Of a DNA stretch of 52,725 nt, positions 9,982-22,261 are shown piece after piece. The position numbers and the translations under genes are program-made. The stretch's first letter is position 1, and each line of letters begins with the position of its first letter. Source of the DNA: Clostridium tyrobutyricum DSM 2637 = ATCC 25755 = JCM 11008. Lineage in GTDB: Bacteria; Bacillota; Clostridia; Clostridiales; Clostridiaceae. Location: the NCBI RefSeq assembly GCF_000359585.1, contig NZ_APMH01000030.1, positions 1 through 52,725 on the forward strand. The letters run 5' to 3'. The notes under the pieces are model-generated. The model was given only the letters and a program-made list of their open reading frames with translations, was not told where the DNA came from and did no database searches.

Positions 9982-10000
9982 TTGAAACGAGGGTATTTTT

Positions 10001-10768
10001 TTGAAATTAAAATTATTAAAAAATGATGAGACACTTGATGATTTACAACTTAACGGTATATGTATAATACAAAAAAGAGAAGCTTTCAGGTTTGGAGTGG
10101 ATGCAGTACTACTTGCTAATTTTGCCAAAGTAAAATCAAAGATGAAAGTAATAGATTTATGTAGTGGCACTGGAATAATTCCATTTATATTAGCAGGAAA
10201 GACCAATGCAGAGCACATAACTGGTATCGAAATACAAAAAGATATGGTTGATATGGCGAAACGCTCTGCTTGTTTTAATAATATGAAGCAAAGGCTTGAA
10301 TTCATACATAAAGATCTATCAGACTTGAATTTTATGAATAGTTTGTCTAAAGTAGATATAGTTACTGTAAATCCGCCATATAAATTAAAAAATTCAGGTA
10401 TTGTAAGTAAGGATGATAAGAATGCTATAGCGCGACATGAAATATGCTGTACTTTAGAAGATGTAATAAAAGCTGCTAAGAGTGTATTAAAGGATAATGG
10501 AAAGCTGTATATGATTCATAGACCGGAGCGTATTGTAGATATAATGTATATTATGAGAAAGTATTCAATAGAGCCTAAACTTATGAGAATGGTTCAACCA
10601 ACTATTAATAAAGCTCCCAATATGGTTTTAATAGAAGGTAAGAATAATGGAGGGAAATTTCTAAAGTGGGAAGCCCCTCTTGCAATTCATAGGGAAAATG
10701 GTGATTATACTGAAGAAATAAATATCATATATGGAAGAAATGAGAGTGATAAAAATGGCAATAGGTAA
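10001..10768 (+). CDS. trmN6: tRNA1(Val) (adenine-37-N6)-methyltransferase family protein (YabB)
   Basis: This class I SAM-dependent methyltransferase (255 aa) probably methylates an adenine base in tRNA or rRNA. It shows the SAM-binding motif VIDLCSGTGIIPF and the amino-methyltransferase catalytic NPPY (VTVNPPYK), as in TrmN6/YfiC and B. subtilis YabB. The start is TTG with GAGGG seven bases upstream. It overlaps rsmI by about 14 bases, the same yabB-yabC arrangement as in Bacillus (which has yazA between). Confidence 0.88.
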   Translation: MKLKLLKNDETLDDLQLNGICIIQKREAFRFGVDAVLLANFAKVKSKMKVIDLCSGTGIIPFILAGKTNAEHITGIEIQKDMVDMAKRSACFNNMKQRLEFIHKDLSDLNFMNSLSKVDIVTVNPPYKLKNSGIVSKDDKNAIARHEICCTLEDVIKAAKSVLKDNGKLYMIHRPERIVDIMYIMRKYSIEPKLMRMVQPTINKAPNMVLIEGKNNGGKFLKWEAPLAIHRENGDYTEEINIIYGRNESDKNGNR

Positions 10769-11600
10769 ACTCTTTTTGGTTCCTACGCCTATAGGAAATT
10801 TACAGGACATAACACTGAGGGCATTAGATGTATTAAAAAAAGTTGATATAATAGCAGCGGAAGATACCAGGCAGACTCTAAAGCTTTTAAATCATTTTGA
10901 GATAAAAAAGGCTCTTGTAAGTTATCATAAATTTAATGAAAATAATAAAAGTTCTGTGCTGATAAACAAAATTAGAGAAGGAAAAAACATAGCAATTGTA
11001 AGTGATGCAGGAACACCTGGAATTTCTGATCCAGGAAGTGTTATAGCAAAAAAATGTATAGAAGAAGGAATCGACTTTGAGGTTCTTACTGGAGCTACAG
11101 CTATAACTACGGCACTTGTCTACTCGGGATTGGACAGCAGTCATTTTACTTTTAGAGGATTTCTACCGAGGCAAAATAAAGATAAAATAAAGATAATAGA
11201 AGAGCTAAAGGATAGAACAGATACTTTGATTTTTTATGAGTCACCTCATAGATTAAAGGATACATTATCATTTTTAAAGAATAATCTGGGAAATAGAAAA
11301 ATAGCTATATGTAGAGAACTTACAAAAATCCATGAAGAAATATTAAGATTTACTATTGAAGAGGCCTTATTGTATTACAGAGATCAAAATATAAAGGGTG
11401 AGATAGTATTAGTAGTAAGTGGAAAGTCTGAAGAAGAAGTCATAGAAGAAAAAAAGAAAACTTGGGTTAATATAAGTATTGAGGATCATATAAAAAATTA
11501 TATGGATGGAGGACTAGATAAAAAGGAAGCTATTAAAAAAGTGGCGAAGGATAGAAATATATCTAAATCCGACATTTATAAGCATTCTATAGGATTATAG
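10755..11600 (+). CDS. rsmI: 16S rRNA C1402 ribose 2'-O-methyltransferase
   Basis: RsmI (281 aa) modifies the ribosomal P site using SAM. The tetrapyrrole-methylase fold is clear from GKLFLVPTPIGNLQDIT at the N terminus, AAEDTRQTLKLL, the glycine-rich SDAGTPGISDPG and FYESPHRL. The longest frame starts at 10731, but ATG 10755 gives the conserved MAIGKLFLVPTPIGNL N terminus, downstream of GAGAGTG. It overlaps the trmN6 stop by 14 bases. It lies in the yabB-yabC-abrB neighbourhood as in B. subtilis. Confidence 0.92.
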   Translation: MAIGKLFLVPTPIGNLQDITLRALDVLKKVDIIAAEDTRQTLKLLNHFEIKKALVSYHKFNENNKSSVLINKIREGKNIAIVSDAGTPGISDPGSVIAKKCIEEGIDFEVLTGATAITTALVYSGLDSSHFTFRGFLPRQNKDKIKIIEELKDRTDTLIFYESPHRLKDTLSFLKNNLGNRKIAICRELTKIHEEILRFTIEEALLYYRDQNIKGEIVLVVSGKSEEEVIEEKKKTWVNISIEDHIKNYMDGGLDKKEAIKKVAKDRNISKSDIYKHSIGL

Positions 11601-12060
11601 TACTTATACAACCTTTTTAATTTAAAGATTGATATTAATTACATAAAATAATTTCTATAAATTGACTTATTGTGAAAACTGATCTAAGAAAAGCTTTAGA
11701 TTATTAATAAACACGTACATATAATTTTAAATTATAATATTTTTAAAAAATATACTGCAAAAGTTGTGATATTGTTAATTTTATTGTATAATAATAAACA
11801 TGAGTTTAAATTGATAATAAATCATCAGTTTGCATCTTTAATTTAATTGTACATGACAATATATATAGCGGTACACTTTCGACTTTTTAATACTTCAAAT
11901 CTAAATTATTGGCATTTCAGTTAGAAATTTATCTATCTTATTATTAAGTGGATCTAAATTTTGTAGCAATTTGTAGTAATATGCTAATAGTATTATTAAA
12001 ATTTTGAGTATTGTCACTAGCATTTGTTAAGGAATAGTTAATAGGGGGAGGTACAGAATT
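11601..12060 (+). promoter_or_regulatory. 460-bp leader region of the NlpC/P60 gene, with a sigma-A-like promoter
   Basis: A good promoter is seen: TTGTGA (11764-11769), a 17-base spacer and TATAAT (11787-11792). Transcription from it would give an untranslated leader of about 260 bases before the TTG start at 12061. Small inverted repeats (TGATAATAAATCA near 11812; ATGCTA/TAGCAT near 11980-12025) are present. No known riboswitch, including the ydaO/c-di-AMP class often linked to wall hydrolases, was recognised. Otherwise the stretch is featureless AT-rich DNA. Confidence 0.55.
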
Positions 12061-13155
12061 TTGAATAGAAAAACTATATCTGTTGCTATCGCGTTAACGT
12101 TAGCATTGTCAACAGGTGGAAGTGTTTTGGCTGCACCAAGTAGTACAAGCTCTATAAATCAAGTCAAACAACAACAGCAGGAACTGCAAATCAGGGTTGA
12201 AAAATTAGACAATCAGATATCACAAGTATTAGATAAAATTAACAACAATAAGAATGACATTAAAACTATAGCTAAAAATATAGATCAAAATAAACAAAAT
12301 TTAAAAAAAGCAGAAGATAGTATAAATACTCAACAACAGTTATTTAATAAAAGGGCAAGGGCAATGTACATAAATGGTGTAGATAGCTATCTTGGTGTAA
12401 TACTGAATTCAAGCAGTATAAATGATTTTATGTCAAGAGTAGATACAGTAAAAAGAGTAATGACTTCGGATAAAAATGTAATAAGTGATTTAAAGGACAA
12501 AAAGCAACAATTAGCACAGGAAAGAGAAAAATTAAATAGTGAAAGCAATAAACTTCTTGCGCTAAAGACTGATAATGAGAATAAATTAGCCAAGCTTAAT
12601 AGTGATAAATCTACACAAACTAAATTAATAGCAGATTTAGACAAAAAAGAAAAAGCTCTTGAGGCAGCATCTGCAAATGCTGAAAGTAAAAGAGTGGTAG
12701 CTGTAGCAGCGGTTAATGTACAAAAAGTTAGGGAAGCGGCACCTAGAATTCAATCATCTTCATCAGGAAATTCTCAATCTATTTCAAGAGGTGGATCGGC
12801 AGCATCTGCGTCCTCAAGTGCAGTAGTAGCTTATGCATCTAATTTTTTAGGGGTTCCTTATGTTTGGGGTGGAACAACTCCATCTGGATTTGATTGTTCA
12901 GGATTTGTTCAATATGTATATGCTCACTTTGGAATTTCACTTCCAAGAGTTTCACAGGATCAACAAAATGTAGGTACTCCTGTATCTAGATCAGATCTTC
13001 AACCAGGAGATTTGGTATTCTTCGGATCACCTGCATATCATGTAGGAATATATGTAGGAAATGGTTCATACATAAATGCACCTAAAACTGGTGATGTAAT
13101 TAAAATAGCTCCAGTAGACAGATCAGATTTTAGTGGTGGCAGAAGGGTTAATTAA
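12061..13155 (+). CDS. Secreted peptidoglycan hydrolase, coiled coil plus NlpC/P60
   Basis: The 364-aa protein has a signal peptide (about 1-25, ending in VLAAPSS) and a long Gln/Lys/Asp-rich coiled coil (about 30-210, similar in type to PcsB/CwlO). A Ser-rich linker follows, then a C-terminal NlpC/P60 domain (about 248-364). Catalytic Cys lies in FDCSGFVQ and His in YHVGIYVG. The third, polar position reads NAP, where HAP is common. Such enzymes cut the D-Glu to diamino acid peptide bond for growth or cell separation. The start is TTG after GGGGGAGG. Terminators bound it downstream. Confidence 0.92.
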   Translation: MNRKTISVAIALTLALSTGGSVLAAPSSTSSINQVKQQQQELQIRVEKLDNQISQVLDKINNNKNDIKTIAKNIDQNKQNLKKAEDSINTQQQLFNKRARAMYINGVDSYLGVILNSSSINDFMSRVDTVKRVMTSDKNVISDLKDKKQQLAQEREKLNSESNKLLALKTDNENKLAKLNSDKSTQTKLIADLDKKEKALEAASANAESKRVVAVAAVNVQKVREAAPRIQSSSSGNSQSISRGGSAASASSSAVVAYASNFLGVPYVWGGTTPSGFDCSGFVQYVYAHFGISLPRVSQDQQNVGTPVSRSDLQPGDLVFFGSPAYHVGIYVGNGSYINAPKTGDVIKIAPVDRSDFSGGRRVN

Positions 13156-13165
13156 TGTTTTTTCT

Positions 13166-13206
13166 AAGGATACATAGTAATAAGACTATGTATCCTTTAA
13201 TTTTTA
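13166..13206 (+). terminator. Intrinsic terminator after NlpC/P60 gene
   Basis: A perfect 13-bp stem (13166-13178 with 13185-13197) with a 6-base loop is followed by TTAATTTTTATT. Confidence 0.88.
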
Positions 13207-13249
13207 TTCTATATACCATTATGAATATTTGAATTAAATTATTACAATA

Positions 13250-13282
13250 AAAAATAGGCTATTCTAAAATAGCCTGTTTTTA
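13250..13282. terminator. Bidirectional terminator downstream of abrB
   Basis: AGGCTATT (13256-13263) pairs with AATAGCCT (13268-13275). The hairpin has T-runs on both strands: GTTTTT to the right and the complement of AAAAAAT to the left. It serves abrB (minus) and is a second stop for the hydrolase gene. Confidence 0.82.
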
Positions 13283-13290
13283 CAGAAGAA

Positions 13291-13536
13291 TTATCTTCCT
13301 TCTTTTAATTCATTTAAACAATTCTTGCATATATTTTTTCCTTTGTAATTTACAACATCTCTTGCATCACCACAGAAGATACATGCTGGTTCATATTTCT
13401 TTAATATGATTTGTTCACCATCCACGTATATTTCTAAAGCATCTTTTTCAGCAATGTCTAAAGTCCTTCTTAATTCTATAGGAATTACAATTCTTCCTAG
13501 CTCGTCCACTCTTCTTACAACACCTGTTGATTTCAT
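13291..13536 (-). CDS. abrB: Transition-state regulator AbrB
   Basis: This 81-aa DNA-binding protein has an N-terminal swapped-hairpin (AbrB/SpoVT) domain almost identical to B. subtilis AbrB: MKSTGVVRRVDELGRIVIPI, then ELRRTL and KDALEIYVD. The C terminus differs. It holds CIFC (52-55) and CKNC (70-73), a probable zinc-binding pair absent from Bacillus AbrB. In clostridia AbrB homologues control the shift from acid production to solventogenesis and sporulation. The start is ATG behind GGGAGG; a strong promoter lies upstream. Synteny (yabC - abrB - metS) agrees. Confidence 0.95.
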   Translation of the reverse strand: MKSTGVVRRVDELGRIVIPIELRRTLDIAEKDALEIYVDGEQIILKKYEPACIFCGDARDVVNYKGKNICKNCLNELKEGR

Positions 13537-13581
13537 TTATTTTCCTCCCTAAGTTCCATAATTCGACATGAGTATAATTAA

Positions 13582-13610
13582 ATAGTAGCAAAAATTACAT
13601 TAAAAGTCAA
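13582..13610 (-). promoter_or_regulatory. Sigma-A promoter of abrB
   Basis: On the minus strand TTGACT (13610-13605), a 17-base spacer and TACTAT (13587-13582) form a near-consensus promoter. Transcription would start about 40 bases before the abrB ATG. The remaining 13611-13929 region toward the CCA enzyme is AT-rich; nothing else was recognised in it. Confidence 0.75.
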
Positions 13611-13929
13611 TAGATTTTCAAAAAATATTTACATATTTCTTATTAAATGACATTGGAGTGTTAATATAGTAGCTATAAATATAAGATTAATATATCCTAT
13701 AAACCTAGTCATATGAACTATTTTAAAAGATTATAGTTCTAAAAAATTAATAGGAAAAAAATATTAAAATTTTATTTATAATAAAATAGTTATTATATGG
13801 TTAATAAGAAATATATGTCGAAAATATTGTGTAATGGAGAATACTTTATTTATTGTATTAAAAGTAATTTTATATAGGAATAAATTACTTTTATATGATA
13901 GAATAGTATTTAAAGTAGGTGATATATAT

Positions 13930-15324
13930 ATGGATTATATAAAACAATTTATTAAAAATTTGGATCCAATATTAAATGAAATTGGTGGAAATGTTTACCT
14001 GGTTGGAGGATATATAAGAGATAAATTGATAAGTTATAGAAATAAACCCAAGGATGCAGATTTTATATATGATGGAAATATAGAAAAGTTGATAAAAAGG
14101 CTTGAGAAATTGGAATATAAATTTTTCCCAATAAAAAAATCAGCAGGAATATATAGATGTTTGTTAGATGAAAATATTATAGATATTTCTGAAATTAAAG
14201 GAAATTCTATCGAGGAAGATTTAAGTAAAAGGGATTTTACGGTAAATGCCATCGCAATGAAAGTATTACAAAATAAAATAATAGATCCCTTTTATGGAAG
14301 AAGGGCTATTAAAAATAAAATAATTAAATCAGTATCTAAGGAGAGCTTTAATAATGATCCTATAAGAATTTTAAGAGGAATAAGGCTGTATTTGACATTA
14401 GGAATGCATTTTAATAAGGAGACAGAAGATATGCTTGTTAAAGAAGCATATAAGATTTCTGAGGCACCAAAGGAACGAATTCTCTCTGAATTAATGACTA
14501 TGATAGAAAATGATACAGAAGGAAAAGTTTTTGAGTTATTGGATACTTTTTCAGTGCTTAAGTATTTAATACCATATACAGAAGAGTTAAAAACTATTGG
14601 AAAATGTAAATATCACGTAGAAGATGTTTTTACCCACAGTAATTTAACTTATAAGGTTTTTAAAGATATTGTAAAACAAAGAATAAATATAAAAGGTATT
14701 GATTTAATTGAATTTAACAGCAAAATTGGAGAGTTTAGTATTAGAGAATATATTGCACTTGTTTGTTTCTTACATGATATAGGAAAGTACAAGGCTTATA
14801 CAAAAAATAGTGATGGAAGTATAAGTTTTTCTGGACATGAAGAGATTGGATCACAAATATGTAAAGCAATATGTGAAAATTTAAGATTTCCTAAAAAAGC
14901 ATCTAAGTTTGTAGAGGATATTGTAGGAGCTCATATGTATCCACTTAAGTATTTTAAAGATACTGCAGACAATAAAAGAAAAAATTATTATAAATTTTTC
15001 TCCAGGTATGATAAGCTTTCAAAAGTTATACTTATAGTTTCATTTTGTGATAATTATGCTACCAGGATGCTTTTAGATAAAGAAAACGAAAAAGAAAAAT
15101 ATAAAAGGTTTGTTGAAGATATGCTTCATGAATATGATGTATATGCTGAAATAAAAAATAATAAAATTATAGATGGGAATTATATTGAAGATATTTTAGG
15201 TGAAACAGGTTCTATTGTTGGGGATGTTATAAAAAATATGGATGAGTTCAGGTACTTGAAAAGGATAAATACAAAAGAGGAAGCTATAGAATACGTCAAA
15301 AAAATAAAGCTGGCTAGATTATAA
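13930..15324 (+). CDS. cca: CCA tRNA nucleotidyltransferase / poly(A) polymerase family protein with HD domain
   Basis: A class II nucleotidyltransferase (464 aa) that probably adds or repairs the 3' CCA of tRNA. The head domain shows YLVGGYIRDKL and the metal-binding DAD in KPKDADFIYDG. The ERDFTVNA-type motif appears as SKRDFTVNAIAMK, then NDPIRILRGIRL of the RNA-binding neck. A C-terminal HD hydrolase domain carries FLHDIGKYKAY. The frame is open from 13834, but ATG 13930 follows a good AGGTGA and gives the family-typical N terminus. Poly(A) polymerase is possible; the HD domain favours the CCA enzyme. It is convergent with the Cys-rich gene. Confidence 0.85.
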   Translation: MDYIKQFIKNLDPILNEIGGNVYLVGGYIRDKLISYRNKPKDADFIYDGNIEKLIKRLEKLEYKFFPIKKSAGIYRCLLDENIIDISEIKGNSIEEDLSKRDFTVNAIAMKVLQNKIIDPFYGRRAIKNKIIKSVSKESFNNDPIRILRGIRLYLTLGMHFNKETEDMLVKEAYKISEAPKERILSELMTMIENDTEGKVFELLDTFSVLKYLIPYTEELKTIGKCKYHVEDVFTHSNLTYKVFKDIVKQRINIKGIDLIEFNSKIGEFSIREYIALVCFLHDIGKYKAYTKNSDGSISFSGHEEIGSQICKAICENLRFPKKASKFVEDIVGAHMYPLKYFKDTADNKRKNYYKFFSRYDKLSKVILIVSFCDNYATRMLLDKENEKEKYKRFVEDMLHEYDVYAEIKNNKIIDGNYIEDILGETGSIVGDVIKNMDEFRYLKRINTKEEAIEYVKKIKLARL

Positions 15325-15342
15325 TATATGTTTAGTTATTGA

Positions 15343-15460
15343 CAAACAAACTTATCCACAGTGTGGATAAGTTTGTTTGAATTTATGTCTAAATTAATAG
15401 TGACAATGATATAAAGTTATACACAGAAAATGTGTATAACTTTATATGTATTGTGTATAA
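15343..15460. repeat. DnaA-box cluster 1: two perfect inverted pairs plus one more box
   Basis: Five exact TTATNCACA boxes lie in about 110 bp. Boxes at 15352-15360 (TTATCCACA) and 15362-15370 (reverse) form the core of a 37-bp inverted repeat (15343-15379, one centre base). Boxes at 15417-15425 (TTATACACA) and 15431-15439 (reverse) form the core of a 17-bp-arm inverted repeat (15409-15447, GAAAA loop). A fifth box lies at 15452-15460 (reverse). The cluster lies between convergent genes, so the hairpins may also stop transcription. The box match is seen directly; DnaA binding is inferred. Confidence 0.8.
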
Positions 15461-15474
15461 GTTTATAAAATTAA

Positions 15475-16128
15475 TTATTTATCGATAGTTTGAAATGTAG
15501 AGACTATGAAATCAAATTCACCAGGATCAGTTATTTCACCATAATTATCTTCTGATATTCCAGGATAATAATATAATATAAATTTTTCTCTTGTAATAAT
15601 ATCCTGTATTATTATATATTTTTTATCATTTCCTACATTTTGAAGAGTTGCCAAGGTGGTATATTTGCTGTCTTGATTGGTTTTATTATTTGTAAGCGTC
15701 AAATTGAAATTATAGTGTTTTGTGACATTTATCTTTTTTCTATCACAGTAGGCAATAAATGAGTCGCTTTTACATGCCAGACAACTGCCGAATTTACAAT
15801 CAATTGTACAATTAAGACATTGACAAGAGCTGCAATTTTTCAGTTGTTCAATTGATTCTAGGTTATCTTCTTTATAGGTGTTTAAAAGATATATATATTT
15901 ATCACTTTTGAATTTATTAAAAAAGCTGCCGTGTTTAATTTCTGATTCAGTAGATTCGAGTAGATCCATATACTTTTTTAATATATCAAGCTTTACTACA
16001 TATTTTCTTCTAGATAAAATAACATTATCTAAAAAAGGGGATACATTATCTATTGCATAACTTATATCTACAAATAATTTTCCATAATGAGTTTTTTCAT
16101 GATTTATAAATTCATCAACTTTACTCAT
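15475..16128 (-). CDS. Cys-rich protein of the PspA operon (probable zinc-binding)
   Basis: A 217-aa protein of unrecognised family. Residues 1-95 are helical and charged. A dense cysteine cluster (reading CSSCQCLNC, then CKFGSCLAC and a later Cys) lies around residues 98-130, likely binding zinc. The C-terminal third is beta-rich (VGNDKKYIIIQDIITREKF). There is no signal peptide. The start is ATG 16128 behind GAGGTGA rather than the frame's first codon at 16155. It follows pspA closely on the same strand; in B. subtilis a zinc-ribbon gene (ydjG) similarly follows the PspA gene ydjF. Functional link is inference. Confidence 0.7.
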   Translation of the reverse strand: MSKVDEFINHEKTHYGKLFVDISYAIDNVSPFLDNVILSRRKYVVKLDILKKYMDLLESTESEIKHGSFFNKFKSDKYIYLLNTYKEDNLESIEQLKNCSSCQCLNCTIDCKFGSCLACKSDSFIAYCDRKKINVTKHYNFNLTLTNNKTNQDSKYTTLATLQNVGNDKKYIIIQDIITREKFILYYYPGISEDNYGEITDPGEFDFIVSTFQTIDK

Positions 16129-16157
16129 TGTTTTCACCTCATTAAAGTTTAACATGT

Positions 16158-16814
16158 CTATTGATTATTATTTTTATACTTTTTAAGTTCTTCATCTAAG
16201 TTGACTTCATCTAATTTCTCAAACTCTTTATCCAATGAATTATCGTCCCTTAAATCTTCAAGTCCTTTAGACAAAGCTTCTTTTTTTTGAATCTTTCTTT
16301 CGACTTCATCTAAGTTTATTCTATTACTTCCATCATCTACGTTTGCAAGAATTTCATTTACCTTTTTACTTGCTTCAGCATTGTTATATCTTGCAGCAGC
16401 TTCATCTCTATAATTTCTGGCTTTTTGAATTTCATCTTCCAATTCTTTTAACTTTATTTTTATAGCTTCACCTTTAGAATAGGCATCTTTATAGCTTGTC
16501 TCTAAAGATGCATAGGTTTTATCTGCTGTTATTTTTCTTTCCAGGGCTTTTTTTGCCAACTCCTCATTACCCTTATTTAATGCTAGTTTGACTTTACTGT
16601 CAAATTCTTCGGAAGTTCTTTTTGAATCCTCCATCTTCTTTTTTATTTCATGAACATTGCCAAGTATTTGAGCAGATGATAATTTTGCTTTATTTAAGCT
16701 ATCCTCCATGTCACGTAATTTTTGGCCTAAAAGTTCTATAGGGTTTTCAACCTCATCTAATTTATTATTTATCTTAGCCCTGAAGATATTTGATACTCTT
16801 TTAAAAACACTCAT
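16158..16814 (-). CDS. pspA: PspA/IM30 (ESCRT-III-like) membrane-maintenance protein
   Basis: This 218-aa, almost wholly helical, charged protein fits the PspA/Vipp1 family. It begins MSVFKRVSNIFRAKINNKLDEVENP, with an amphipathic helix followed by the typical ENPIELLGQKLRDMED. Coiled-coil helices run through about residue 185 and the tail is acidic. PspA proteins polymerise on stressed membranes and limit ion leakage. The neighbours are a Ser-rich membrane protein upstream and a Cys-rich protein downstream, an operon resembling B. subtilis ydjFGH. Confidence 0.88.
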   Translation of the reverse strand: MSVFKRVSNIFRAKINNKLDEVENPIELLGQKLRDMEDSLNKAKLSSAQILGNVHEIKKKMEDSKRTSEEFDSKVKLALNKGNEELAKKALERKITADKTYASLETSYKDAYSKGEAIKIKLKELEDEIQKARNYRDEAAARYNNAEASKKVNEILANVDDGSNRINLDEVERKIQKKEALSKGLEDLRDDNSLDKEFEKLDEVNLDEELKKYKNNNQ

Positions 16815-16831
16815 TTAATTAACCTCCTTAA

Positions 16832-17410
16832 TTATTTTTTTCTAAATTTATTTATTCTATTAATAATAAATATTAGTATTAATATTACTACTATAAATTT
16901 AACAAAACCCCAGAAAAACCTTGATAAAAGACTAGATTGTCCATAACTACTGGCTGAATTGTAATTATGCCCCCATGGAATTGGAATGGGGATAGGGAAA
17001 AATGATCTTCTATTATTTCCATTATTATAATTTTGAGTTGATGAAGAATTACTAGCTTTTTTATTATAGGATTTTGAATCAGATTTTGTAGAATTTGAAA
17101 AACTTCCTGACTTAAAATCTCCGCTGCTGCTAGAAGAACTATTGTTGCTTTTATATTCCGATTTAGGTTTTGAAAAACTTCCTGATTTAAAGTTTCCACC
17201 CTGAGATCTTGAACTATGGAAGGAACTTCTTGTGGAAGAATGTGATGCAAAACCTCCAGATTTAAAACTTATTAGAGTTGGGGATTTGGCATATGCGGTA
17301 TTTCCCTTATTATGTAAAAAACCTGGTAAAATAGTATTTATTAACAAAAATAAAAAAACAAGAAATACAGCTGTATAAGATTTCTTTTTAAATATTTTGG
17401 ACACCTCCAA
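16832..17410 (-). CDS. Ser/Lys/Asn-rich exported membrane protein of the PspA operon
   Basis: This 192-aa protein has an N-terminal hydrophobic segment (about 12-32), perhaps a signal anchor. A low-complexity Ser/Asn/Lys/Phe region (about 45-140) contains three FKSG(G/S)F repeats. A Pro-rich FFPIPIPIPWG stretch and a C-terminal membrane helix (about 165-185) with a basic tail follow. No catalytic domain is visible. The layout recalls glycine/serine-rich membrane partners encoded next to PspA homologues (YdjH-type). It is the first gene of the operon; pspA follows 17 bases downstream. Function unknown. Confidence 0.72.
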   Translation of the reverse strand: MEVSKIFKKKSYTAVFLVFLFLLINTILPGFLHNKGNTAYAKSPTLISFKSGGFASHSSTRSSFHSSRSQGGNFKSGSFSKPKSEYKSNNSSSSSSGDFKSGSFSNSTKSDSKSYNKKASNSSSTQNYNNGNNRRSFFPIPIPIPWGHNYNSASSYGQSSLLSRFFWGFVKFIVVILILIFIINRINKFRKK

Positions 17411-17641
17411 TAAAATACTTGTTTTTTTATTAATATAATATCATAATAATATTAACTTATCATTATGTGTACAAGTTATAATTATATAATACAGTATTGC
17501 ATACTATATTACAAGTACTATATTATCTTATTTTAAAATAATATGAACTATTTAGCCAACATTTCATTATAAATCTAATTATGTATTACAATACCACTAA
17601 ATTTCTAATATATAGATGATTAAATCCTCAGGATACTTACA

Positions 17642-17686
17642 TTGTAAAGTGGTTATAAATAACTTATAATGATATTATAAGTTATT
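17642..17686 (+). promoter_or_regulatory. Promoter with overlapping palindromic operator for the DUF1836 gene
   Basis: TTGTAA (17642-17647), 17 bases and TATAAT (17665-17670) form a sigma-A promoter. A palindrome with 13-bp perfect arms (17658-17670 and 17674-17686) and GAT centre covers the -10 and start site, an ideal repressor site. The SD of the downstream gene begins five bases after it. Confidence 0.72.
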
Positions 17687-17702
17687 ATTGGAGGGATCAA
17701 AA

Positions 17703-18302
17703 TTGAAAAAAAGTGAATTCGATATGGAATATGTAAAAAATGCTGCTGAAGAAATATCTAAAAATACAATTATACCATATGAAGATTTACCAAGATATGA
17801 TTTATTCTTATCTCAGGTAATAGATTATTTAAATGATAAATTTTCAGGGGAAAAATACACAAATAACATAGTACAAAATTATGTTAAAAATGAAGTAATA
17901 TCAAAACCTGTAAATGGTAAAAAAAGAGGCTATACTAAAGATCATTTAGCTCAGCTCGTATTATTAAGTTATATGAGGCCTATATTATCTACAGAGGAAA
18001 TTAAGAAAGTATTCAGATTGGCCTTTAATGAGATAAATGATGGAGAAGATGATATAATATCATGGGAAAAGGCATATAAAGTATTTTCCTATATACAAAA
18101 AGATAGTTTTAAAAAGATTATTGCAAAGGATTTATTTGATAAGGAAAGATTAAATAATATGATTAAAGACATGAATTTGAAATCCAATGAAGAAGAGGAA
18201 AGAATAGTATTGTTTTTTTCAGTCATGTCTTTAATCTGTCAAGCAAGTTCAATAAAAAATTTAGTACACAGTATAGTAAGTAATTATGAAAAAGAAATTT
18301 AA
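17703..18302 (+). CDS. DUF1836 protein with MerR-like helix-turn-helix
   Basis: This 199-aa protein fits DUF1836, a Firmicutes family with a predicted winged helix related to MerR. The core is YTNNIVQNYVKNEVISKPVN, then KKRGYTKDHLAQLVLLSYMRPILS, resembling the MerR pattern in which a lysine-rich turn is followed by Y(T/S)..(D/H)L. The C-terminal half is helical and could dimerise or bind a ligand. TTG 17703 is the likely start (GAGGGA, six-base spacing). A palindrome on its promoter suggests autoregulation. Targets unknown. It is convergent with ispF with a 4-bp gap. Confidence 0.75.
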   Translation: MKKSEFDMEYVKNAAEEISKNTIIPYEDLPRYDLFLSQVIDYLNDKFSGEKYTNNIVQNYVKNEVISKPVNGKKRGYTKDHLAQLVLLSYMRPILSTEEIKKVFRLAFNEINDGEDDIISWEKAYKVFSYIQKDSFKKIIAKDLFDKERLNNMIKDMNLKSNEEEERIVLFFSVMSLICQASSIKNLVHSIVSNYEKEI

Positions 18303-18306
18303 AACG

Positions 18307-18786
18307 TTATTCAATCTTCTTATTTAAAAGGCATATGCTTTTAGATGATATGCCTTCTTTTCTACCGGTAAATCCAAGCCCTTCTTCAGTAGTTGCCTTT
18401 ATACTTATTAAGTCAATATCGATGTTCAATGTTTTGGATATACAATTTCTCATTTTATCTATATAAGGAAAAATTTTTGGTTCCTGGGCAATTATTATAG
18501 AATCTATATTGCCTATAGTATATCCCTTGTTAATTATTAAATTATTTACATAATATAATAATTTAATGCTGGATATATTTTTATATTTTAAGTCGGTATC
18601 AGGAAAGTGTTTTCCTATATCACCTAAAGCCAATGCTCCAAGCATACTATCCATTATTGCATGTGTGAGCACATCTGCATCTGAATGTCCTAAAAGACCT
18701 TTTGGATAAGGTATAGTTATACCTCCTAGTATTAGTGGTCTATCATCTACTAATTTATGTACATCGTAACCTATTCCAATTCTCAT
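18307..18786 (-). CDS. ispF: 2-C-methyl-D-erythritol 2,4-cyclodiphosphate synthase
   Basis: IspF (159 aa) makes the cyclic diphosphate intermediate of the non-mevalonate isoprenoid pathway. It shows [11 protein letters not shown] with the zinc-binding Asp-x-His, [14 protein letters not shown] with the third His, the GKHFPDTD loop and [16 protein letters not shown] at the C terminus. The longest frame reaches 18849, but ATG 18786 behind GGAGGATAAAT gives the canonical N terminus. Its last codons contain a hairpin that also ends the convergent DUF1836 gene. No other isoprenoid gene is adjacent. Confidence 0.96.
18328..18362 (+). terminator. Terminator of the DUF1836 gene embedded in ispF coding sequence
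   Basis: AAGGCATAT (18328-18336) pairs with ATATGCCTT (18348-18356), followed by CTTTTCT on the plus strand and CTTTTAAAT on the minus. It lies within the last codons of ispF, so coding and terminator functions overlap. Confidence 0.65.
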
Positions 18787-18823
18787 ATTTATCCTCCATA
18801 ATATGTAAAAATTTGTTTTTATA

Positions 18824-18852
18824 AAATAAAAAGGTGCTTTAAAATGCACCTT
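18824..18852 (-). terminator. Terminator after the small basic protein gene
   Basis: On the minus strand AAGGTGC (18852-18846) pairs with GCACCTT (18837-18831), followed by TTTATTTT. It lies between the 60-aa gene and ispF, so ispF depends on read-through or on a promoter inside this short gap. Confidence 0.75.
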
Positions 18853-18862
18853 GAAATTACTA

Positions 18863-19045
18863 TCAAGAGATATATTTTGAATAATTTATTACTTTTTTAT
18901 TAGATATGCTTTTGTTTGAAGAGCTTTCTCTTGTAGGGCTAAATATATTATTAAACAAGTTTTTCAAAAAAGTGATAAGATTAAACTTTCCATGTTTTTT
19001 CTTTCTTGCTTTTGAAAAATCAATTGTGATAACGTTATCTTTCAT
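18863..19045 (-). CDS. Small basic hypothetical protein (60 aa)
   Basis: Family not recognised. The protein begins [20 protein letters not shown], followed by a hydrophobic [14 protein letters not shown] stretch and a Ser/Asn/Lys tail. The KARKKK patch could bind nucleic acid or acidic lipid. Start ATG 19045 has AAGGTGG upstream and a terminator follows the stop, so it looks like a real, separately terminated gene. It lies beside the second DnaA-box region, 780 bp from the next gene. Confidence 0.62.
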
Positions 19046-19219
19046 AATAGCTCCCACCTTCCTTAAATTGTATCTAATTAAATGATATCATATTTTGATA
19101 TCTTTGTTAATAAAATAGTAAGAAATATTTAACTTGAAATGTATTAACATGATAAATTTTAAACACAATATTTATTGAATAAATACCATATAAAAATAAT
19201 TGAATATTTTAAGAGGTAT

Positions 19220-19253
19220 AATTCCTAAGTTCTGATTTCAGAGACTTAGGAAT
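19220..19253 (+). repeat. Orphan hairpin in the 19046-19825 gap
   Basis: AATTCCTAAGT (19220-19230) pairs with ACTTAGGAATT (19243-19253); inner TCTG/CAGA pairing extends the stem with one bulge. It is followed by TATTATAAAA, a poor T-run. No upstream gene on this strand needs it. It could end an unannotated small RNA or be a protein site. Confidence 0.6.
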
Positions 19254-19419
19254 TTATTATAAAATAAATATTGTGCATAAGGATAAAAAGGTAAAATAAT
19301 TTGTTTTAAGAAATAGTACTTTTGAGCTAAGCAGTTTCATTCGGGTAATATATTATATGAAGAATATTATTAAGTTGTTACTGTATATTTTGAAATTTTA
19401 AAATATATCATAAAAAAAG

Positions 19420-19667
19420 TTATGCACAAGTTATACACAAATCTGTGGATAATGTTAATATATATTAATAAAAAAAGTATTAAAAAACATTTTATTTACT
19501 GAAAATTATAATAATAACTGATATTAAACAACTTATAAACAAGCTATCTGTGGATAATGTGTATAAAATGATGAATTAAGTTATTTTAATATTAAAATAA
19601 CAAAAGGTTATAAATATATAATCTGTTGATAATGTTTATAGCTTATATATAAGTACAGTTATACAGA
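19420..19667. repeat. DnaA-box cluster 2 in a 780-bp gene-free region
   Basis: Exact TTATNCACA boxes occur at 19420-19428, 19431-19439, 19444-19452 (reverse), 19549-19557 (reverse) and 19558-19566 (reverse). One-mismatch boxes lie at 19533-19541, 19624-19632 (reverse) and 19659-19667. Between the groups is AT-only DNA (about 19455-19545) that could unwind. It looks like an origin-type array, but dnaA and dnaN are not here. Gene-free 19046-19825 otherwise shows only the hairpin at 19220-19253. Possible roles are DnaA titration, regulation of the next operon or an accessory origin; binding is inferred. Confidence 0.78.
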
Positions 19668-19825
19668 GTATTTAAAAATTTTGTTGATAAATATGATTGT
19701 TATTAGCATTATATATTATTATAATAAGTATGTAACTATTAAATTTAGTATATATGTTATTTTATGCATATTTATTATATTAATGAAAATAATACTTTAT
19801 AAAGCCTGTAGAAAGAAGTGAATAC

Positions 19826-20725
19826 ATGAACAAAAGAGGATTGAAAATAATAATTGCATGTATAATAATTGTTATAGGATTGCTTGGTTTGTGTAATATT
19901 TTAAAGCCTAATTTTTTGCAGGACATAAAATCAAACTCAACCATAAGTAATAAAAATAACATTGATAAATCATTAAAGGTAGTAGATTCTAATGATTATA
20001 AAATACCTAAAGAGAGGGAATTTACAGGAGATGTAATATATAACAACAGTTCTGTACCTGTATTAATGTTTCATTCTATAGATTATGAAAAAGGTAATGA
20101 ATTAAGAATTCCAAAGGATGCATTTAGAGAAAAGATGAAATTTTTAAAGGATAGTGGATATACTACACTAACTTTAAACGAGTTTTATAAGTTTATTGAG
20201 GAAAATAAGCCAGTACCTGAAAAATCTGTGCTTATAACCTTTGATGATGGATATGAAGATAATTATACAAATGCATATCCTGTTTTAAAAGAATTTGGAT
20301 TACATGCTACCATATTTGTCATAACTAGTACGGTAGATAAAGATAGTGGTTACTTAACTTCAAATCAGTTGAGGGAAATGAATAGAAATGGTATAGACAT
20401 TGAAAGTCATACTGTTAATCATGATGATTTAGATAAATTAAGTTATGAAAAGCAGCTTGAGACTTTAAGAAATTCCAAAGAATCTTTAGAAAATATATTA
20501 AATAAAAAAATAGATTATATAGCATATCCATTTGGGCACTTTAATCAAAATACCATTAAGGCTGTACAGGTATCAGGATATAAAATGGCATTTACTACAG
20601 AAAGTGGCTGGGGAAATAAATCTCAGGGAATATACAAATTGCATAGAGTTTATGTAAGTGCCAATCATAACATAAATGAGTTTATGAGAAGATTAAAAGA
20701 TCCCGAATATGATATACATAAATGA
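19826..20725 (+). CDS. Membrane-anchored polysaccharide deacetylase (NodB domain)
   Basis: The 299-aa protein has an N-terminal membrane segment (about 7-24), probably a signal anchor, and a CE4/NodB domain (about 80-295). Motif 1 TFDDGYEDNY carries the catalytic Asp and metal Asp. Motif 2 SHTVNHDD supplies the metal-binding His pair, and YPFGHFN matches motif 3. It likely removes acetyl groups from surface GlcNAc or MurNAc polymers. The PVLMFHSI start is typical of the PgaB/YadE-like branch. It precedes a glucosaminidase gene by 42 bases, suggesting a joint cell-wall role. A DnaA-box array lies upstream. Confidence 0.9.
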   Translation: MNKRGLKIIIACIIIVIGLLGLCNILKPNFLQDIKSNSTISNKNNIDKSLKVVDSNDYKIPKEREFTGDVIYNNSSVPVLMFHSIDYEKGNELRIPKDAFREKMKFLKDSGYTTLTLNEFYKFIEENKPVPEKSVLITFDDGYEDNYTNAYPVLKEFGLHATIFVITSTVDKDSGYLTSNQLREMNRNGIDIESHTVNHDDLDKLSYEKQLETLRNSKESLENILNKKIDYIAYPFGHFNQNTIKAVQVSGYKMAFTTESGWGNKSQGIYKLHRVYVSANHNINEFMRRLKDPEYDIHK

Positions 20726-20767
20726 TAGAGAAAATATTATTCAATAAATAACATGGGGGGAAATATT

Positions 20768-22261
20768 TTGAATAGAAAGTTAAGAACATTGATTTTGGTT
20801 GCAGTTATTTCTTTTACGAGTTTCCAATTTAAGACAACTGTAAGTGCTTATTCAGGCACTAAAAATAGTGTAGATGTTAACAAGGAGTGGTCTGTAAAAT
20901 TTAATAAGACATTAGAATCAGATACGGTTAACAGCAGTAATATAATTGTTAAGGATGCGAGTGGCAATAGTATACCTGTAGCTATAACTTTATCTCAAGA
21001 TAAATATACAGTGTTTATTAGTCCACAAACTTCAGGATATATACCTGGTGCTCAATATACTGTAAATATAAGTAAGGGAGTTAAAGATTCAGCAGGTATT
21101 CCTTTAAGTGAGGCTGGTACGTTGAAGTTTACTCTTGTAAATAAGTATTCTGATGGGACAAGCTATTTAGGATTACCGGTTATAAATTCAAATACATTTC
21201 AACATATGCCACTATTATCTTCCCAAAAACAAGGATTTATATTAAATTCTACAGCTGGTCAGAATGTTAAATATAGAATATTTGTAGCGCAGGATAATCC
21301 ATATAGTGATGGAGCTTTTCAGGAAATAACCCAAAACTATGTATCTCCTGTAAATGGTGTAGTTACAGCAAATAAGGCTTTGGATTCTGGAACAAATGGA
21401 CAAAAATATAAGGCTATTATATATGTAAGAAGAGCAGGGGTATCTACTGGAGCTCATAGGGATATGAATACAGATTATGATAATTATTACATAGATTATT
21501 TTAGATGCGTTGATAGTTCAAGTATTTCAAATGTAAAGTATACCAATTATGATACATCATTGAGTTATGGAGTAAATAAGCAATTGGCATGGGAGAGTTA
21601 TCCTAATGAAGGACCCTATTTTTCTAAAACTGCTAGTTTTACTAATTTAGCCTCTGCCAATCAGATAAAATACTATATGAATCCAAGTAACTTTCTTGAT
21701 TCATATGGAAAATATCAATTTTTGAAACTTAGTTATGAAGATGGTATAAGTGTAGATGATTTAAACAATTTTCTTGCAAACAAGGGTATTTTTAAAGGAC
21801 ATGGACAGGACTTTATAAATGCAGCTAAAGCCAACAATATAAGTGTAAGTTATCTTGTTTCTCATGCAATGCTTGAAACGGGACTTGGAACTTCATATCT
21901 TTCAAGTGGACAGGCAAAATATAATGGAAAAGTTGTTTATAACTTTTTTGGAATAGGAGCAGTAGATAGTGATCCAAATGGTGAAGGTTCCAAAAAGGCA
22001 TATGAAGAAGGATGGTTTACACCTCAACTTGCCATATCAGGTGGAGCTCAATGGCTTTCTAAAAGTTATATAAATAATGCTAATTATAAACAGGACACTA
22101 TCTACAAAATGAGATGGAATCCTGCAGATCCAGGTCAACATCAGTATGCGACAGATATTTCATGGTCATATAATCAGATATCAAATATAATTAATATGAT
22201 AAATATGGCACCTTCATTATATCAAACAGTGTATTTTGACATACCTAAATATGCACAATAA
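20768..22261 (+). CDS. Secreted N-acetylglucosaminidase with N-terminal Ig-like (Big_5) domain
   Basis: This 497-aa autolysin has a signal peptide (about 1-27, cleavage near VSA), a Big_5/SbsA Ig-like domain (about 30-125: KEWSVKFNKTLES, then AGTLKFTLV) and a middle beta-rich region. The C-terminal GH73-type glucosaminidase domain (about 355-480) has ISVSYLVSHAMLETGLGTS with the catalytic Glu, then YNFFGIGA and the ISGGAQWLSKSYI block. It would cleave GlcNAc-MurNAc strands. TTG 20768 is the start; the upstream ATG at 20753 overlaps the GGGGGG ribosome site. Probably cotranscribed with the deacetylase. Confidence 0.9.
   Translation: MNRKLRTLILVAVISFTSFQFKTTVSAYSGTKNSVDVNKEWSVKFNKTLESDTVNSSNIIVKDASGNSIPVAITLSQDKYTVFISPQTSGYIPGAQYTVNISKGVKDSAGIPLSEAGTLKFTLVNKYSDGTSYLGLPVINSNTFQHMPLLSSQKQGFILNSTAGQNVKYRIFVAQDNPYSDGAFQEITQNYVSPVNGVVTANKALDSGTNGQKYKAIIYVRRAGVSTGAHRDMNTDYDNYYIDYFRCVDSSSISNVKYTNYDTSLSYGVNKQLAWESYPNEGPYFSKTASFTNLASANQIKYYMNPSNFLDSYGKYQFLKLSYEDGISVDDLNNFLANKGIFKGHGQDFINAAKANNISVSYLVSHAMLETGLGTSYLSSGQAKYNGKVVYNFFGIGAVDSDPNGEGSKKAYEEGWFTPQLAISGGAQWLSKSYINNANYKQDTIYKMRWNPADPGQHQYATDISWSYNQISNIINMINMAPSLYQTVYFDIPKYAQ

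Follow-up and report, generated by a model that had tools for sequence, protein, structure and literature searches.

A conserved arrangement of DnaA boxes outside oriC in Clostridiaceae: a candidate DnaA control locus

The window analysed here, a stretch of 52,725 nucleotides that makes up the whole of contig C30, one of the 76 contigs of its genome, carries an arrangement of DnaA boxes that is conserved in the genus: a head-to-head pair lies about six helical turns before a triple of one forward and two reverse boxes (+ - -), and a second array is found 4 kb away. The triple occurs in 18 genera, is nearly always single in a genome and lies outside oriC, and it is origin-proximal in those relatives in which the distance could be measured. 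Judged from its sequence and distribution, the element is likely to be an origin-proximal DnaA-binding control locus akin to the DnaA-box clusters of Bacillus subtilis. Since the same box spacing recurs in many related bacteria, it probably acts as a sponge or switch that helps to time DNA replication. We regard it as a putative control locus of this clostridial family, made up of conserved DnaA boxes, for which we infer binding of DnaA, an effect on initiation and either uptake or recharging of DnaA. A site of DnaA titration or reactivation, as already proposed in the initial annotation, is the best-supported class of function: the boxes persist in the same order and at the same spacing where adjacent genes and stems differ.

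Box arrangement in the window and the genus

Five exact TTATNCACA boxes were located at 15352-15460 in a scan of the window, four of them within two perfect inverted repeats (Table 1). The boxes and repeats had been described in the initial annotation, as had the position between convergent genes; a box scan, a repeat scan and the orientation of the flanking ORFs confirmed all three. Not foreseen there were the third box of the triple, the second cluster at 19272-19566 and the spacing that the inverted pair shares with E. coli DARS. In the core triple the offset is 14 between boxes I and II and 21 between boxes II and III (positions 0/14/35), abbreviated below as (14,21). Over the whole window, 14 exact boxes were counted versus 4.29 expected, and this number was reached in 0 of 100 shuffles. 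Genome-wide enrichment of the motif was slight (192 boxes versus 171 for the reversed control motif); inverted box pairs separated by 1-12 nt were detected at 4 sites in 3.01 Mb, 3 of which lie in the window, versus 1 for the reversed control. The box arrangement at 15343-15460 far exceeds chance.

Table 1. Positions of the boxes, inverted repeats and flanking genes in the window
Feature	Position	Strand	Sequence	Remarks
CCA-type nucleotidyltransferase gene	13834..15324	+		PolyA_pol and HD domains; ends just before the element
First inverted repeat	15343..15379	.		arms 15343-15360/15362-15379 of 18 bp, 100% complementary, 1 nt between; head-to-head boxes 1 bp apart plus 9 outer arm pairs
First-repeat boxes	15352-15360, 15362-15370	+, -	TTATCCACA	exact
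Second inverted repeat	15409..15447	.		arms 15409-15425/15431-15447 of 17 bp, 100% complementary, 5 nt between; outer arms flank boxes I and II
Core triple	15417..15460	+		boxes I, II and III
Triple boxes I, II, III	15417-15425, 15431-15439, 15452-15460	+, -, -	TTATACACA	exact
Cys-rich ORF, convergent	15475..16155	-		no Pfam match; homologues anchor the element in several genera
Second DnaA-box cluster	19272..19566	.		six exact boxes: 19272 (-), 19420 (+), 19431 (+), 19444 (-), 19549 (-), 19558 (-)
Variant box	19533	+	TTATAAACA	completes a + (16) - (9) - array in the second cluster

For comparison within the genus, 13 loci (12 relatives and the window) were chosen via the CCA-type gene and not via the boxes; the orthologues in the 12 other genomes have 50-60% identity, and a search with the same protein among named genomes gave 3 loci. 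The initial annotation had suggested an alignment of the gap between the CCA-type and the Cys-rich gene across relatives, and in this gap DnaA boxes are kept in all 12 relatives. Gene order is likewise kept, except that extra DNA has been inserted downstream of the CCA-type gene in G004, G010 and G012; G003, G005 and G006 have an extra gene within the second gap, the one before the deacetylase gene. With inserted DNA counted as part of the gaps, 86 of the 95 exact boxes fall into the two gaps (35 into the CCA/Cys gap and 51 into the deacetylase gap) and 9 into the remaining 100.9 kb of the 13 loci; 200 shuffles of the gap letters yielded 2.05 boxes on average and never more than 6.

When the boxes were relaxed to TTDTNMACA, all 13 loci of the genus were found to contain the triple + (14) - (21) -. 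Among 34 loci (13 of the genus and 21 others), 18 have a head-to-head pair with offset 10 upstream of the triple, at a distance of -62 to -65 in 15 loci and of -126 in 3 mutually close relatives. The pair is absent in G004, G010 and G012, in which the triple still stands beside the Cys-rich gene. Other genera have other upstream box sets, for example -80+, -64-, -55-, with distances that are fixed within each genus. In eight aligned rows of the genus (G005 and G006 being left out as near copies of G003), conservation was 0.92-0.96 in box columns versus 0.60-0.65 in arm columns. Because pair and triple are separated by either 62-65 bp or roughly double this distance, corresponding to approximately 6 or 12 helical turns, DnaA may form an ordered assembly on the double-stranded element.

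The second cluster is situated between a small ORF adjoining ispF and a polysaccharide deacetylase gene, upstream of the latter. It is kept in the genus, its 51 exact boxes being spread over the 12 loci, including the window, in which it was compared (the stretch from G009 spans just 3.8 kb). Triples with offsets (16,9) in 8 and (13,9) in 6 of the 13 genus loci are the next commonest after (14,21) and match the arrays of the second cluster. A third cluster outside the origin was noticed in the same genome (G000 contig C6:21119-21180, corresponding to L005:5120-5181), where four exact boxes lie between two minus-strand ORFs, three of them as + (15) - (9) - and the fourth as +.

Distribution in the family and distance to the origin

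The relaxed triple was detected in 54 of 206 genomes of the family and in 18 of its 46 genera, including 13 of 13 genomes of the genus of the window, versus 0 of 206 genomes for a reversed-pattern control; 8 Mb of simulated sequence contained 0 matches. It is single in 53 of the 54 genomes and occurs twice in one. The strict triple is absent from 152 of the 206 genomes and from 28 of the 46 genera, including 68 of 68 genomes of genus g17. A search of 225 genomes of the order, among them the 206, returned the same matches as the family search, with the triple in 0 of 19 genomes of the other two families.

A looser search covered 48 genomes, of which 42 lack the strict triple, and gave matches in 28. 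These include related + - - triples with offsets (12,21) in 4 of 10 g17 genomes and in G019, (13,21) in G068 and (15,21) in G060, while many others are unrelated in spacing. The triple of G060 is located near homologues of AbrB and DUF1836. Three of the g17 triples (L126, L127 and L130) overlap the end of a long open frame, which is a different place from that of the window element, and none of ten window proteins had a homologue within 1.5 kb of them. At these three loci, two reverse boxes spaced by 9 bp come after the (12,21) triple. A search with the Cys-rich protein matched in 61 of 116 genomes; among the best 30 loci, the strict triple was present in 12 (7 of the genus), and in L066 boxes were present and the strict triple absent. 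In a scan of viral contigs, a slightly stricter triple matched in 2 stretches, L150:492-535 and L151:3626-3669.

In 28 of 30 loci, the triple has a homologue of one of the window genes at a distance of no more than 1.5 kb, and the gap that bears the triple varies by genus, being found beside the Cys-rich gene, beside the deacetylase gene, upstream of DUF1836 or near AbrB. According to simple ORF calls for the 30 loci, the triple is located between convergent ORFs in 22, upstream of DUF1836 in 3, between tandem ORFs in 2 and in an ambiguous setting in 3. To the left of the element in the window, at 10001-13536, genes for a small-domain methyltransferase, a tetrapyrrole methylase family protein and an AbrB-like protein were observed. 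Their arrangement may resemble the order yabB-yabC-abrB next to yabA, a DnaA regulator, in B. subtilis.

The window being a whole contig, distances to oriC are those of relatives. In a sample of 24 of the 54 genomes with a triple, chosen for few contigs, 18 had dnaA and a triple on one contig, and the distance was 79-736 kb in all 18 and within 230 kb in 13; for three of these (G004, G012 and G137) it was taken across the contig ends under the assumption of a circle. The nearness to oriC may just reflect inherited gene order. In the genome of the window, a canonical bipartite origin with the order rpmH, boxes, dnaA, boxes, dnaN is located on contig C38 (gene names were read from ORFs, and dnaA was recognised by Pfam), and this gene context is absent at the element. 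The DnaA protein of the host contains the DNA-binding domain Bac_DnaA_C. An origin-proximal site would be copied soon after initiation, and the copied site could take up DnaA or change its nucleotide state, so that initiation would be timed and not repeated too early. By analogy, uptake of DnaA as assumed for the clusters of B. subtilis is the safer guess; since the box gap equals that of E. coli DARS, a head-to-head dimer could also release its ADP as it does there.

Alternative roles and the hairpin arms

In its strict form, the latter reading would make the element a clostridial DARS analogue, with boxes I and II holding two ADP-DnaA molecules head to head, promoting ADP release and raising ATP-DnaA before initiation, which we consider unlikely. 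According to excerpts of the literature, E. coli DARS1 and DARS2 have three boxes in common, which are equally spaced in the two sites and of which box I points against the other two (PMC5742627); ADP release is attributed to the head-to-head contact of boxes I and II (PMC8682772, PMC5742627). We read DARS1 as TTATCCACT-5-TGTGGATAA-3-TGTGTATTA and DARS2 as TTATTCACC-5-TGTGGATAG-3-TGTGAAGAA; here, boxes I-III were assigned in this analysis from the shared spacing and from the primers, printed in the consulted excerpt, that had replaced boxes I-III, and the letters of the second primer adjoin box III. A different choice of boxes in DARS2 with offsets 17 and 29 was dropped, since DARS1 shows a shared core of 14 and 12. 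The clostridial triple has the same number of boxes in the same + - - order, with box I opposite to II and III, and an identical I-II offset of 14 (5-bp gap). In contrast, the II-III offset is 12 (3-bp gap) in both E. coli sites and 21 (12 bp) here, and because of this different placement of the third box we did not file the triple as DARS. One matching spacing among, by our estimate, about fifteen possible ones is weak evidence, and the related triples found elsewhere have I-II offsets of 12, 13 and 15. B. subtilis lacks datA and DARS according to excerpts of two sources (PMC5295017, PMC13220808). DARS2 of E. coli needs IHF and Fis. Reviews, in the portions consulted, know of no DARS-like recharging site in Gram-positive bacteria. 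It is equally doubtful that the usually single-copy element of Clostridiaceae recharges DnaA from the ADP to the ATP form via a head-to-head dimer across the 5-bp gap, acting in the genus as a two-part complex with the second array 4 kb away. If it were a recharging site, a mechanism of gamma-proteobacteria would gain a Gram-positive counterpart. The constant box geometry, found in 18 genera of a single clostridial family, makes the element a direct place to ask whether replication in these bacteria is timed through uptake or through recharging of DnaA.

The boxes might also be DnaA-regulated promoter sites for neighbouring genes, mainly for DUF1836 or for the deacetylase gene beside the second cluster. 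The second cluster indeed occupies the deacetylase gap, upstream of that gene, and the triple is located upstream of DUF1836 in 3 of 30 loci; however, 22 of 30 loci have the triple downstream of the ORFs on both sides, and the neighbouring gene differs between genera, which makes a promoter function improbable.

The two perfect inverted repeats raise the possibility of a plain bidirectional terminator between convergent genes, the stem of which would read as DnaA boxes by chance. Both hairpins fold strongly as RNA on both strands (z -5.65 to -7.21) and are terminator-like on the plus strand by consensus match, with a stem followed by a T-rich tail, versus an average of 0.0 in shuffles, and most loci (22 of 30) lie between convergent ORFs; Rfam gave no structured-RNA match in 10000-22000. 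The outer arms of the first repeat differ in sequence among the genomes of the genus, with G001 pairing only when shifted, and pair better within their own genome (0.71) than when swapped across genomes (0.43; 0 of 5000 permutations, 8 distinct loci). Over all 15 distinct loci the difference was smaller (0.50 versus 0.37, 2 of 5000), because the loci of genera g4 and g8 are without extended arms. For the arms of boxes I and II, pairing was 0.42 versus 0.37 when swapped (55 of 5000, 33 distinct loci) and 0.44 versus 0.35 in the genus only (18 of 5000); all these permutations ignore relatedness. Full-length arms of the second repeat are rarely kept, 8 paired flank bases being found in 3 of 34 loci (G000, G008 and L102). 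The outer arms of the first repeat bear out the earlier suggestion of a selected symmetry within the genus, and the second repeat does so only weakly.

Against a plain terminator as the main role, the boxes of the first pair persist and the paired arms are gone in g4 and g8, the other genera with this pair (8 loci), box columns are better conserved than arm columns, the third box, which is unpaired, keeps its offset of 21 bp, and 5 of 30 triples have a setting other than convergent genes. A plain terminator as the main role was rejected on the triple setting, the loss of arms with boxes kept and the column conservation, and we consider it highly improbable. The initial annotation had named loss of the boxes with retention of the stems in relatives as a sign of plain terminators. 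Mostly the opposite was found, as in g4 and g8, and stems are not kept independently of the boxes, with G001 as a partial exception: its first pair is down to one-mismatch boxes and a slightly shifted hairpin is still readable. A terminator regulated by DnaA, the other function suggested there, is unsupported as the main role of the triple because 3 of 30 triples are upstream of a gene and 2 are between tandem genes. On sequence grounds the hairpin arms appear to be secondary to the boxes; given the different conservation of box columns and arms and the armless loci of g4 and g8, the stems seem to have been added later to an older box grammar, and they may double as mRNA 3' end for the convergent genes. 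In this genome, a role of the hairpins as terminator or in forming mRNA 3' ends is possible, because both score as terminator-like. A second replication origin, to which the dense boxes in AT-rich gaps might point, was rejected because the canonical bipartite origin lies on C38, where the box spacing is different, and with no initiator gene among ten neighbours scanned it is extremely improbable.

Comparison with known DnaA-binding loci

Among the publications judged by their titles and the first lines of their abstracts, none dealt with a site of DnaA boxes away from oriC in Clostridium; PMC7561715, in the part consulted, treats the origin of C. difficile. Like the candidate control locus, E. 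coli datA consists of DnaA boxes in non-coding DNA away from oriC; between its boxes datA requires an IHF site, as described in an excerpt of PMC4585315. For B. subtilis, excerpts of two sources report six DnaA-box clusters outside oriC and early initiation after deletion of all six (PMC5295017, PMC13220808). In the excerpt of PMC5295017 these clusters are judged to be without a significant role because a strong effect was seen only with all six removed, and reviews, as far as excerpted, state that no regulator of the ATP/ADP balance of DnaA is known in this species. The element described here resembles these clusters in its dense DnaA boxes in non-coding DNA outside oriC of a Gram-positive host. 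In the 18 relatives with a measured distance (79-736 kb), the triple is origin-proximal. The B. subtilis clusters are reportedly called oriC-proximal in the title of a paper by Okumura et al. from 2012. The clostridial element differs from the B. subtilis clusters, as far as these are described, in the fixed order and spacing of its boxes across genera and in the second array 4 kb away.
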